Part shown: positions 15,027 to 19,515 of the stretch, one piece after another
Numbering within the stretch: the first letter of the stretch is position 1
How the letters are laid out: every line of letters begins with the position of its first letter
Source of the DNA: Methylotenera sp.
GTDB taxonomy: Bacteria; Pseudomonadota; Gammaproteobacteria; Burkholderiales; Methylophilaceae
Direction: 5' to 3'
Assembly: GCA_013141075.1 (NCBI GenBank)
Contig: JABFRQ010000004.1
Coordinates: forward strand, 129,073-193,072
Length of the DNA stretch: 64,000 nucleotides
Made by a program: the position numbers and the translations under genes
The notes under the pieces: model-generated
What the model was told of the DNA's origin: nothing
Seen by the model: the letters and a program-made list of their open reading frames with translations, nothing else
The model's database searches: none

Positions 15027-15934
15027 TGCAAATTTTTAGGCACATCCCAGCCGCGTTACAACCCCCATGCGCTTTGGCGATAGGCAATTTTGACGGTATG
15101 CACTTAGGGCATCAAGCTTTATTACGTAAGCTAGTTGAAACCACAAAGGCGCAAGGTTTAACTTCAGCCGTAATGACATTTGAGCCGCATCCACGCGAGT
15201 TTTTTACGCCAGAAAGCGCACCAGCACGGCTGTGTTCAATGCGCGAAAAGTTAGAATATATTGCGGCGGCAGGTGTTGAGCGCGTGTATGTTTGCAGGTT
15301 TAATCAGCGTTTTGCAAAAGTCACAGCAGATGCATTTATACACACCATTTTGCGTAACTCACTCAATGCACAAGCCATTATTGTGGGCGAAGATTTTAGG
15401 TTTGGCGCCATGCGCGCAGGCTCGGTGGCTGATTTTATAGCAGCCAAGCTCAATTTAATTAGCCTGCCAAAAGTGGCGCTAACTGGCGAAAGAATTTCAA
15501 GTACCCGTGTGCGCGCGGCTTTGGCGGCAGGTGATTTTTTAGAAGCCAGCCAATTATTAGGTCGGCCTTATAGTATGAGCGGCAATGTAGTACATGGCGC
15601 AAAACGCGGTCGTCAACTTGGCTTTCCTACAGCCAACGTTCACATGCGGCATGAGCGGCCAGCCTTAAAAGGCGTTTATGCGGTAAAATTAGACGGTTTA
15701 AATGCCGTGGCAAATCTAGGCATTCGCCCGACCATTGCAGGTGTACCAAAGCTCATGTTAGAAGTTCATGTGCTTGATTTTAATGGTGATTTATATGATA
15801 AGCATGTGCATATAGAATTTTTGCACAAAATTCGTGATGAAATGAAGTTTGATGGTTTGGACGCGCTAAAAGCGCAAATTGCGGCGGATGTTGCCGTTGC
15901 GCGAGAATTTTTTAAATCCGTCATTCCCGCGTAG
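15026..15934 (+). CDS. ribF: RibF, bifunctional riboflavin kinase / FAD synthetase
   Basis: RibF makes FMN and then FAD from riboflavin. The N-terminal adenylyltransferase domain shows GNFDGMHLGH (residues 20-29) and the SSTRVR motif; the C-terminal flavokinase begins near residue 185 with GNVVHGAKRGRQLGFPTANV. The last residues (SVIPA) and the TAG stop are read from an inserted palindromic repeat that starts at 15920, so the original C-terminus has been replaced. The change is confined to the tail and need not affect activity. Confidence 0.96.
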   Translation: MQIFRHIPAALQPPCALAIGNFDGMHLGHQALLRKLVETTKAQGLTSAVMTFEPHPREFFTPESAPARLCSMREKLEYIAAAGVERVYVCRFNQRFAKVTADAFIHTILRNSLNAQAIIVGEDFRFGAMRAGSVADFIAAKLNLISLPKVALTGERISSTRVRAALAAGDFLEASQLLGRPYSMSGNVVHGAKRGRQLGFPTANVHMRHERPALKGVYAVKLDGLNAVANLGIRPTIAGVPKLMLEVHVLDFNGDLYDKHVHIEFLHKIRDEMKFDGLDALKAQIAADVAVAREFFKSVIPA

Positions 15935-15990
15935 GCGGGAATCCAGTTAAGGTAGATGCTTGCCTAGATTCCCGCCTACGCGGGAATGAC
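15920..15990. repeat. Paired dRS3-like palindromic repeats (hairpin) at the 3' end of ribF
   Basis: Two copies of the pattern ATTCCC-N8-GGGAAT (15923-15942 and 15968-15987) lie in opposite orientation. The 27-base outer arms (15920-15946 and 15964-15990) pair with one mismatch around a 17-base loop. The motif resembles the Neisseria dRS3 repeat and similar dispersed repeats in other proteobacteria. It overlaps the ribF stop and ends 26 bases before ileS. Confidence 0.85.
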
Positions 15991-16016: not shown

Positions 16017-18866
16017 ATGACCGAAGAAAATAAAGATTCAAAATACAAATTAAACCTACCAGAAACCACCTTCCCCATGCGTGGTGATTTAGCCAAGCGT
16101 GAGCCAGCGTGGCTAAAACAATGGACGGATAAAAAGCTTTACGAGCGCATTCGTGCTTCACGTAAAGGCAAAACCAAATTCATTTTGCATGACGGCCCGC
16201 CGTACGCCAATGGTGATATTCACATTGGCCACGCCGTTAATAAAATCTTAAAAGACATCATTATTAAAGCCAAAACCATGGATGGTTTTGATGCGCCTTA
16301 TGTGCCAGGATGGGATTGCCACGGCTTGCCGATTGAATTGGTGGTTGAGAAAAATCACGGCAAAAATATTGCCCCTGCGAAGTTTCGTGAGCTTTGCCGT
16401 GCCTACGCGGCAGAGCAAGTGGAAAAGCAAAAGAAAGATTTTATTCGTTTGGGTGTGTTGGGCGATTGGGATAATCCATATTTAACGATGGATTTTAAAA
16501 CTGAAGCCGATATTATGCGGGCTTTGGGTGACGTCTATAAAAATGGCTACCTATACCAAGGCAGCAAACCCGTGCACTGGTGCGTAGATTGCGGCTCAGC
16601 ATTGGCTGAGGCTGAGGTGGAATATGAAGATGTGAATTCGCCTGCGATTGATGTGGGGTTTAAGGTTGTGGATAACAAAGCGTTAAGTCTGGCGTTCCCT
16701 CACCCTAGCCCTCTCCCAGAGGGAGAGGGAGTTTGTGCGGTGATTTGGACAACAACACCTTGGACGCTACCAGCAAACCAAGCGGTAAGCATACATCCTG
16801 AGTTTGATTACGATTTAATTCAAACCAGTAAAGGGCTACTAATTTTAGCGCGTGACTTGGCAGAAAAGACTCTTGCAAGATACGGCGAGGAAAATGCCAA
16901 AGTTTTAGCAAGTTGCAAAGGTGAGACTTTACGAGGTCTGATGTTGCAGCATCCTTTCGACAACCGCCAAGTGCCAATTATTTGCGGTGAACATGTTACA
17001 ACGGATGCAGGTACTGGTTTGGTTCATACCGCCGCCGCACACGGTAATGATGACTGGTTGGTTATGAGTGTGAATTTCCCTCATGAAAAACCACGGATAT
17101 TAATGGGTGGCGATGGTAAGTTCTTTAATAGCGATTTAGTCGAGTTTGAAGCAATTCGTGGATTAACGCGTCAAGAAGCTAATAAGGTGATTTTGGCAGC
17201 GATGACAGAAAGTGGTGCTTTGTTAGCAAGCGCGCGTTTGAGCCATAGCTTCCCTCATTGCTGGCGTCATAAAACGCCATTAATGCAATTGGCAACGCAT
17301 CAATGGTTTATTGGGATGCTTACTTTGACATATGGTATTGCTCCAAATAACAAGTTGCATAACCTTCGTGATATTGCAAATAAAGCCGTTGATGCCACCC
17401 AATTCTTCCCAGCTTGGGGACGCGCCCGCCTTGAAGCGATGATTAAAAATCGCCCTGATTGGTGCGTGTCGCGCCAGCGTAACTGGGGCGTGCCGATGCC
17501 GTTTTTTGTACATAAAGAAACTGGCAATCCGCATCCTGAAACGGCTAAATTATTAGAACTTGCTTGCCAGCTCGTTGAAAAAACAGGGGTTGAGGCTTGG
17601 TTTAGTTTAGATGGGGCTGCTTTCTTAGCGCAATACGCCCCAGAAAATGCGGATGACTATAAAAAAGTCACTTACACTTTAGATGTTTGGTTTGATTCAG
17701 GCGCGACCCATGCGGCGGTGTTAAAGCGTCGTCCTGAGTTGGCTTTCCCCGCAGATTTATACCTTGAAGGCTCAGACCAACATCGCGGTTGGTTTCAATC
17801 TAGCTTGCTCACAGGTTGCGCCATCGATGGTCGTGCGCCTTATAAAGCCTTGCTCACGCATGGTTTTGTGGTGGATGGTGCTGGCCATAAAATGAGTAAA
17901 TCTAAAGGCAATGTGGTTGCGCCGCAAAAGGTGATGGACACTTACGGCGCAGATATTCTGCGGCTTTGGACAGCATCCACCGATTACTCGGGCGAGCTGA
18001 CGATTTCAGACGAAATTTTAAAACGTGTGGCAGAAAGTTACCGCCGTATTCGCAATACCATGAAATTTTTGCTGGCGAATATTGCAGACTTTGATGCGAG
18101 CAAAGATTTGTTGCCCGTTGAAGAATGGCTCACCATTGACCGCTATGCGCTGCACTTAACCACTAAATTGCAAACGGAAGTTTTGGCAGATTATGACCAA
18201 TACACGTTTCATTTAAGTGTGCAAAAATTTGTGAGTTTTTGCTCTGAAGATTTAGGTGGCTTTTACTTAGATATTTTGAAAGACCGCCTCTACACCGCAG
18301 GTGAAAGCTCGCATGCACGCCGCGCCGCACAAAGTGCCTTGCACCATATTACGCATTGCATGATGCGTTTAATGGCGCCAATTTTGAGCTTTACGGCCAA
18401 CGAAATTTGGCAAACTTTAGGGCTAGATGCCGAGAAAACTGTGTTTGAAGATGTGTGGTATGACTTGCCAAAACATGGCTTAACGGATGAGCAACTGCAA
18501 GCTTGGGGCGCGATTATCGTAGCGCGTGGACTCGCCGCTAAAGAGATTGATACAGTACGTAGCGCAGGCCAAATCGGCTCATCTTTGCAGGCGGATTTAG
18601 CATTTTATGCGGCGGACTCAAGCTTTGAAGCCATGAATGATTTAGGTGATGATTTGCGTTTTGTGATGATTACTTCAAGCGCAAAAGTGTACAAAGTGGC
18701 TACTGAAGCTGAGCAAAAAACAGTGGTTACGCCAAGCACACATATTAAATGCGACCGTTGCTGGCACTACCGCGCCGATGTTGGCGCTAATGCTGAGCAT
18801 CCAAGTATTTGTGGGCGCTGTGTGAGTAATTTGTTTGGTGCGGGTGAGGTGCGCAAACATGCTTAA
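16017..18866 (+). CDS. ileS: IleS, isoleucyl-tRNA synthetase
   Basis: IleS charges tRNA-Ile and edits misactivated valine. HIGH is at residues 69-72, KMSKS near 625, and the C-terminal zinc site is KCDRCWHY with CGRC. At about residues 226-238 the sequence [13 protein letters not shown] is encoded by a dispersed palindromic repeat inserted in frame between the N-terminal catalytic region and the editing domain ([14 protein letters not shown]). The total of 949 residues is close to the family length, so the insertion is tolerated or replaces a loop. It lies between ribF and lspA, the classical order. Confidence 0.96.
16696..16730. repeat. Palindromic repeat inserted in frame within ileS
   Basis: The core CCCTCTCCC-AGA-GGGAGAGGG (16709-16729) is a perfect nine-base-pair hairpin with a CCCTCACCC lead-in. 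This matches a repeat common in proteobacterial intergenic DNA, which when translated gives [10 protein letters not shown]. Here it is part of the IleS reading frame. Confidence 0.85.
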
Positions 18867-18883: not shown

Positions 18884-18945
18884 GTCATTCTGATGCAAGT
18901 CAGAATCTGCTTAATAACGAGATGCTGAAACAAGTTCAGCATGAC
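18884..18945. repeat. Inverted-repeat element between ileS and lspA
   Basis: The left half (18884-18909, GTCATTCTGATGCAAGTCAG...) and right half (18919-18945, ending GTTCAGCATGAC) are diverged arms. Each half contains its own small hairpin, for example ATGCTGAA-ACAA-GTTCAGCAT. The right half read in reverse (GTCATGCTGAACTTGTTTC) is a very widespread bacterial dispersed repeat. No gene is disrupted. Confidence 0.75.
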
Positions 18946-18971
18946 AGTTGTAAATTGGGTGGGCGAGTCAA

Positions 18972-19449: not shown

Positions 19450-19515
19450 GTCATTGCGAGCGAAGCGTGGCAATCTAATCATTATTACAGATTGCCGCGC
19501 TTCGCTCGCAATGAC
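19450..19515. repeat. Inverted-repeat element between lspA and the molybdopterin oxidoreductase gene
   Basis: The 27-base arms 19450-19476 and 19489-19515 are complementary at all but one position (a G-T pair) around a 12-base loop. The sequence (GTCATTGCGAGCGAAGCGTG) belongs to a dispersed repeat family common in proteobacteria. In one frame it reads PRFARND and creates a false upstream start for the next gene. Confidence 0.85.

Follow-up and report, generated by a model that had tools for sequence, protein, structure and literature searches.

A 33-nt repeat of the triplex-motif (TM) type is translated within the isoleucyl-tRNA synthetase gene (ileS) of the window, i.e. the whole 64 kb stretch of DNA analysed here, and with a probability of roughly 85% the peptide that it encodes is a tolerated solo TM copy whose frame has been kept, possibly one that stems from a DUF559-linked element. 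An untagged triplex repeat of this kind gives in-frame peptides across a free-living family, in essential enzymes and repeatedly in the same linkers, and its landing sites provide a natural map of insertion-tolerant sites.

A TM-type repeat in frame within ileS

The gene, the linker and the parts of the repeat have the following window coordinates:

16017..18866, + strand: ileS, isoleucyl-tRNA synthetase, 949 aa, intact (open frame, NCBIfam match, solved-structure matches)
16617..16769, + strand: variable VEYED...IWTTTPWTL linker, residues 201-251 (linker comparison, 43 to 73 aa in 106 relative loci)
16697..16729, + strand: TM-type repeat, 33 nt (position fixed in the window sequence; compared with the TMECO table, PMC4666352)
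16697-16705, + strand: third strand of the TM, CCCTCACCC
16706-16708, + strand: spacer TAG
16709-16717, + strand: first hairpin arm, CCCTCTCCC
16718-16720, + strand: loop AGA
16721-16729, + strand: second hairpin arm, GGGAGAGGG
16698..16730, + strand: repeat-encoded peptide, codons 228-238 (frame reading, relatives' linkers, local model)

The whole element thus reads CCCTCACCC-TAG-CCCTCTCCC-AGA-GGGAGAGGG (16697-16729). The initial annotation had described a palindrome inserted in frame in an essential gene; the palindrome CCCTCTCCC-AGA-GGGAGAGGG is indeed present (16709-16729, a single copy in the window), as part of what is actually a three-strand motif of 33 nt. In 100 dinucleotide shuffles of the window the palindrome count was 0, and the 21-mer made up of third strand and first arm (CCCTCACCCTAGCCCTCTCCC, 16697-16717) has 1 match in the window with up to 3 mismatches, the expected number being 0.00; a chance palindrome in ileS is ruled out by these two results. 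The in-frame placement was borne out, as the ileS frame (16017-18866) continues without interruption across the repeat and the NCBIfam ileS model covers residues 19-861, spanning the element (869.5 bits vs a cut-off of 621.4). The best solved-structure matches of the protein are isoleucine-tRNA ligases (8c9e, 1ffy). The linker that holds the repeat, between VEYED and IWTTTPWTL, we take to be the start of the CP1 editing region. In an AlphaFold2 model (32 aligned IleS) residues 227-238 are predicted as a coil between a helix (220-226) and a strand (239-245); this model is poor as a whole (pLDDT 63.7) and was used for the local loop alone, where residues 211-250, taken in four blocks of ten, have means of 69-89.

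The gene order around the repeat appears to be ribF, ileS, lspA, with ribF and lspA named from reading the sequence. Other repeats lie nearby. Between ribF and ileS (15919-15990) there is a dimer of CGTC-type REPs arranged head to head (GTCATTCCCGCGTAGGCGGGAATCC plus its inverse), and the final ribF residues and the TAG stop come from it (frame end at 15934). A further palindromic stretch (GTCATTCTGATGCAAGTCAGAATC ... GCTGAAACAAGTTCAGCATGACA) lies between ileS and lspA (18884-18946), and a third repeat type (GTCATTGCGAGCGAAGCG, an inverted pair) is found 3' of lspA (19450-19515). Since the mechanically called ORF at 19492 starts within the GTCATTGCGAGCGAAGCG-type repeat, its true start is probably downstream.

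Lineage specificity and length change in IleS

We extracted the linker from VEYED to IWTTTPWTL at 108 of 117 loci; the nine loci that gave none comprise six other repeat loci of the window's own genome and three relatives (L093, L105, L114). Two of the 108 linkers belong to the own genome and 106 to relative loci, which come from two collections with genomes partly repeated and amount to 89 distinct linkers. A TM-like peptide at the IleS hairpin is absent from all 106 relative loci, and the DNA pattern GGGAGAGGG located 3-30 nt before the IWTTTPW codons turned up in a single genome out of 369 from the class, the one to which the window belongs. The supposition that the insertion is confined to this lineage therefore agrees with what was found among the genomes examined.

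The linker measures 51 aa in the window and 47 aa in 73 of the 106 relative loci, within an overall range of 43-73. Lengths of 43 aa (L026), 51 aa (L063), 56 aa (L018) and 73 aa (L033 and L044) are reached without a TM peptide. The neighbours' IleS reads ALSLAL-GVEVTSDA-YAVIW; in the window about 8 residues are replaced there, with a net gain of 4. The ileS case is therefore not the clean insertion of 12-15 extra residues that had been predicted, and we reject this form of the event.

TM copies in the own genome and across the family

The repeat was expected elsewhere in the genome, and it is there. The own genome (G000; 2.48 Mb, 11 contigs, about 90% complete) contains 7 exact palindromes, and two TM units lie in frame within prmC, where the profile match (45-333) spans the elements at 130-162. 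Other copies are located 5' of an ORF, outside recognised genes or adjoining a DUF559 gene; the ORF downstream of one copy reads like an aspartokinase. As the exact-palindrome count missed variant copies, we used the 21-mer with 1-2 mismatches, which consists of third strand and first arm and does not need the second hairpin arm for a match. With up to 2 mismatches it was found at ten places in the own genome vs 6 for the reversed control (4 and 2 places). Because the reversed control also matched at 2 mismatches, the family survey was set at 1 mismatch; here the reversed control gave one match, in G466.

At this setting a TM-like 21-mer was found in 46 of 187 family genomes. Among the matches listed, the loci taken hold at least 159 distinct TM copies, at least 151 of them within the family, and several of those inside genes differ by 1 mismatch and are of the CCCCC type (e.g. 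QueG, Mfd, RecG, LeuS of G546). The repeat had been called normally intergenic, which does not fit the Methylophilaceae, where many copies lie within genes. Among the at least 151 family copies, 40 have at least 100 open codons on both flanks on one strand: 36 are in phase and open, 1 is in phase with a stop and 3 are out of phase. When 150 codons are demanded, 28 are in phase and open, 1 has a stop and 0 are out of phase.

The profile scan took 40 of 46 candidate ORFs (37 family proteins and three from other families; L119, L154, L162, L178, L200 and L202 were left out). In 28 of the 37 family proteins, from 20 gene families, the TM or a variant has NCBIfam matches to a known protein to either side: IleS, LeuS (3), PrmC (2), HrpA (4), Mfd (2), RecG (2), HsdM, RfbH, Cas1, QueG, Mpl, a ROK kinase, PurL, the TIGR03623 repair protein, TilS, HypF, an ABC exporter, RibD, BioA and RNase R. 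In six of the 28 (L125, L190, L199, L222, L252, L254) the second side comes from a stretch count or another model. A profile match on both sides was missing in 9 of the 37 (L148, L149, L171, L198, L207, L214, L221, L236, L263). As for the three proteins from other families, the match of Cmr3 (L129) spans the element below the family cut-off, and two do not span it. Taken together, TM-type repeats are found in about 20 kinds of protein that are unrelated to each other, in either orientation and in several reading frames, so that the event first seen in ileS is not specific to this gene.

Recurrent landing sites

For LeuS we searched 52 genomes, read 30 loci and measured the stretch from MQRNWIG to TTRPDT, which is 34 aa long in 21 of the 30. 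The LeuS of G002 carries a TM in this stretch (44 aa), while the stretch stays at 34 aa in the related G018, at 96% identity across the matched protein. From class I synthetase anatomy, we take the LeuRS hairpin with the TM to be the counterpart of the IleRS hairpin. The LeuS hairpin also holds four PEPVEG-type and four GLG-type inserts (L298, L303, L310, L311, L314, L317, L320, L323), which recur across several genomes of the genus and look like further repeat families at one site. In PrmC (27 of 30 loci read; L272, L284 and L294 left out) the linker has 30-33 aa in 20 of the 27, contains a TM in 2 (one beside half a CGTC-type repeat) and a CGTC-type dimer in 5. Judged by eye, the TM of HrpA occupies one and the same linker in three genera (L125, L146, L174). 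The HsdM proteins of G032 and G473 are near-identical and differ chiefly at two sites: site one has a TM in G032, and site two has a TM-DUF559 unit in G473 and a short VIPAKAGIH stretch in G032.

DUF559 nuclease genes flanked by TM

DUF559 (PF04480) genes were repeatedly found between TM copies, the own genome having such a unit at G000:C7:14475-14885. In the 122 TM-selected loci (L143-L264) every one of the 7 inward-facing TM pairs 250-700 bp apart encloses DUF559 (7/7, in seven genomes), and none of the closer inward-facing pairs contains it (0/7). Three pairs in other orientations have the same spacing of 250-700 bp; two overlap the same DUF559 units and one is without DUF559.

We then took DUF559 itself as the starting point and read 60 loci, namely 24 of 30 from the family (L349 and L354, at contig ends, and L355-L358, weaker or partial, were left out), 6 of 12 from the order (strong matches) and 30 of 30 from the class, all of them best-scoring loci and not a random draw. 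A TM-like hairpin (up to 2 substitutions) within 200 bp of DUF559 is present on both sides at 36 of the 60, on one side at 8 and on neither at 16 (including 2 of the 6 order loci), compared to control windows with both sides in 0/200 and 0/1000 and one side in 4 and 1. Where one side is clear, the third strand points towards DUF559 for 29 of 33 hairpins upstream of the gene and for 22 of 24 downstream of it. Inverted-repeat scores point the same way: 16 of 25 placed family loci reach at least 18 (8 of them 38-54; best of 400 controls 13), and so do 16 of 30 class loci (controls, n=48, at most 15). Some DUF559 genes carry other inverted repeats (L350-L352).

At the level of whole genomes, 25 family genomes have both DUF559 and TM, 7 have DUF559 only, 21 TM only and 134 neither (Fisher p=1.2e-12, relatedness ignored); in the genus the numbers are 13, 3, 6 and 30 (p=1.5e-5, relatedness ignored), and in both tests TM presence also counts the TMs flanking DUF559 itself. 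The association is weak at the order level, where 3 of 5 genomes having a strong DUF559 match carry a TM and so do 4 of 19 lacking one. The order-mate G050 (27 palindromes) gave no DUF559 match, and G059 (16) gave a weak match in a 1547-aa frame. E. coli, TM-bearing according to the literature, is not among the control genomes matched by PF04480. Of 14 named-record DUF559 loci (among the matches listed, of 38 records), 2 are flanked by TM-like hairpins on both sides and 10 on a single side, and the remaining 2, from Sinorhizobium and Picosynechococcus, have none; these counts stand without control windows. Both E. coli loci have the downstream hairpin only, and two Deinococcus plasmid loci have inverted-repeat scores of 47 and 53.

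The DUF559 protein (128 aa) resembles 3hrl_A, an endonuclease-like protein, and all 16 DUF559 proteins aligned share E20, D49, E60 and D62. In a search that covered titles and abstract openings, with subscription journals mostly outside it, no literature linking DUF559 with TM was found, and in the accessible portion of PMC12907096 the terms 'inverted repeat' and 'palindrom' occur 0 times. TM-like hairpins flanking DUF559 (Vsr-like) nuclease genes are apparently new.

A second DUF559 copy of the own genome, decayed and with TM-like sequence on its flanks, is located where a contig ends (L261, G000:C10:57700-59822). Its upstream flank resembles that of the C7 unit, and it is either a duplication or an assembly duplicate.

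Whole DUF559 units inside host frames

By Pfam, DUF559 was also found within larger host frames:

L367: MmeI-type methylase, MmeI_Mtase in two stretches, DUF559
L359 (own genome) and L362: Type_ISP_C in two stretches, DUF559
L368: Radical_SAM_N in two stretches, then DUF3362, DUF559

We infer that DUF559 sits between the two host-domain stretches in these proteins, as coordinates exist for the better stretch alone. The radical SAM protein of L368 is presumably YgiQ-like. In L335 DUF559 comes after the N6 methylase domain of HsdM, with host sequence again beyond it, and in L364 DUF559 is the sole Pfam domain matched. In L359 (G000:C11:59500-65000) DUF559 lies in frame in a Type ISP-like methylase, between NEGVARSDGVV and TPSLRATPS peptides; by eye, the same methylase site is also filled in G018, G006, G542 and G549.

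Persistence and possible origin of the ileS copy

We propose that a dispersed TM hairpin copy landed in the length-variable hairpin leading into the CP1 editing region of IleRS, where about 8 residues would have been replaced by 11-12 repeat-encoded ones with the frame preserved. The copy would persist because the hairpin tolerates length change, and the peptide is probably without function. Frame retention is what purifying selection leaves, and the spread of TM over frames and genes argues against a specific peptide function. An adaptive insertion, in which the peptide is selected since it alters IleRS editing, folding or expression (e.g. as a translation-pacing mRNA hairpin), would be in line with its position at the entry to the editing region and with the TM in the corresponding LeuRS hairpin of another species (G002); we nevertheless regard it as quite unlikely, given that the repeats occur in roughly 20 kinds of protein without relation to each other, in either orientation and in several reading frames, that IleS hairpin lengths vary without a TM too (43-73 aa), and that the region is modelled as a coil. 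The least probable reading is an assembly or binning artefact: the own genome is a draft in 11 contigs and has the decayed DUF559 copy with TM-like flanks at the end of C10, but ileS is long, open and well within contig C5 (at 145781), and comparable in-frame copies occur in many other genomes.

The solo copy may have come from a small unit in which two TMs facing inward enclose a DUF559 nuclease gene. Solo TMs would then be the non-autonomous ends of the DUF559 unit, as REPs are to RAYT transposases. We see an even chance that solo ends, and even whole TM-DUF559 units, insert in frame and stay translated, the ileS peptide being one solo end; on this same reading, translated solo ends and whole units would make for a peptide-making, domain-inserting element. 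Origin of the ileS copy from such a unit is possible and the boldest reading that these sequence data allow, with a strong anatomy and real exceptions. A rival to be taken seriously, which we rate a little short of even, is that TM spreads nuclease-free, by replication slippage or template switching at the hairpin/triplex, with DUF559 merely often next to it or carried along. Some TM-rich genomes have no strong DUF559 (G050, G059), and the accessible part of the E. coli study (PMC4666352) ties TM to instability and reports that no associated mobile element was found. Against nuclease-free spread stand the inward geometry around DUF559 in 7 of 7 pairs, the TM-like hairpin at 44 of 60 loci and the inverted repeats scoring 38-54 at 8 of 25 family loci and 47 and 53 at two of the 14 named-record loci. 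That a RAYT (Y1 tyrosine transposase) moved the own-genome copies as REPs appears very unlikely: the repeat behaves in a REP-like manner and Y1_Tnp is present in 30 of 52 genus genomes, but the own genome (about 90% complete) has 0 Y1_Tnp matches, which disfavours a RAYT as the mover there, and the ileS element is without a GTAG or CGTC tag.

Neither a precise empty site nor a target duplication was seen at the TM sites. Host residues were lost at the ileS and leuS TM sites, which could reflect later erosion or a replacement event. The peptide's neutrality, the sequence in which events took place in the linker and the source of the ileS copy are inferred. The flanking of DUF559 provides a candidate mover for a repeat that the 2015 study could connect with no mobile element, and it may point to what this domain, still labelled as of unknown function in Pfam, does.

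Comparison with known systems

On the minus strand the ileS element reads CCCTCTCCC-TCT-GGGAGAGGG-CTA-GGGTGAGGG, which has the three 9-nt G/C-rich strands in the identical triplex order of the E. coli TM (TMECO; formerly the PIT motif, with BoxC named alongside). As far as the accessible part of Holder et al. 2015 (PMC4666352) goes, MG1655 has 23 copies of 34-37 nt with TTA/CCG spacers, and inverted pairs occur in E. coli too; the ileS element differs by its length of 33 nt and its CTA spacer. It also lies in a gene and in frame, whereas the MG1655 copies are described there as always intergenic, a feature of one genome and not of the motif. For Enterobacter sp. 638, 100 palindrome copies are given in the portion of PMC2869309 available.

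The initial annotation had drawn a parallel to Rickettsia palindromic elements, which holds for behaviour and not for sequence family. These elements, too, are palindromic repeats in frame in genes likely encoding functional proteins, according to the accessible text of PMC3733652, and the profile match across the element suggests that ileS likewise stays intact. Judged against the description there, in which RPE-6 and RPE-4 correspond to CGTC-1 and CGTC-4 repeats, the ileS element, without a CGTC tag, belongs to another family. Its host is also free-living, with Methylotenera and other Methylophilaceae as nearest named relatives. In-frame REP peptides are a known kind, as GTAG and CGTC REPs are reported to give them in DNA repair genes and in RNA genes, tRNA synthetases among them, of free-living bacteria (same portion of PMC3733652). 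The unpaired end tag of either type is lacking in the TM of ileS, and CGTC-type dimers occupy the prmC linker of relatives.

The DUF559-TM unit would be most like a REPtron, i.e. a DNA-cutting enzyme gene between inverted copies of a dispersed repeat, an arrangement found in many DUF559 loci, with 16 of 60 lacking a TM-like hairpin. It differs in its enzyme: instead of the RAYT tyrosine transposase, this unit, known from sequence, has a PD-(D/E)XK-like nuclease that matches PF04480 and 3hrl_A.
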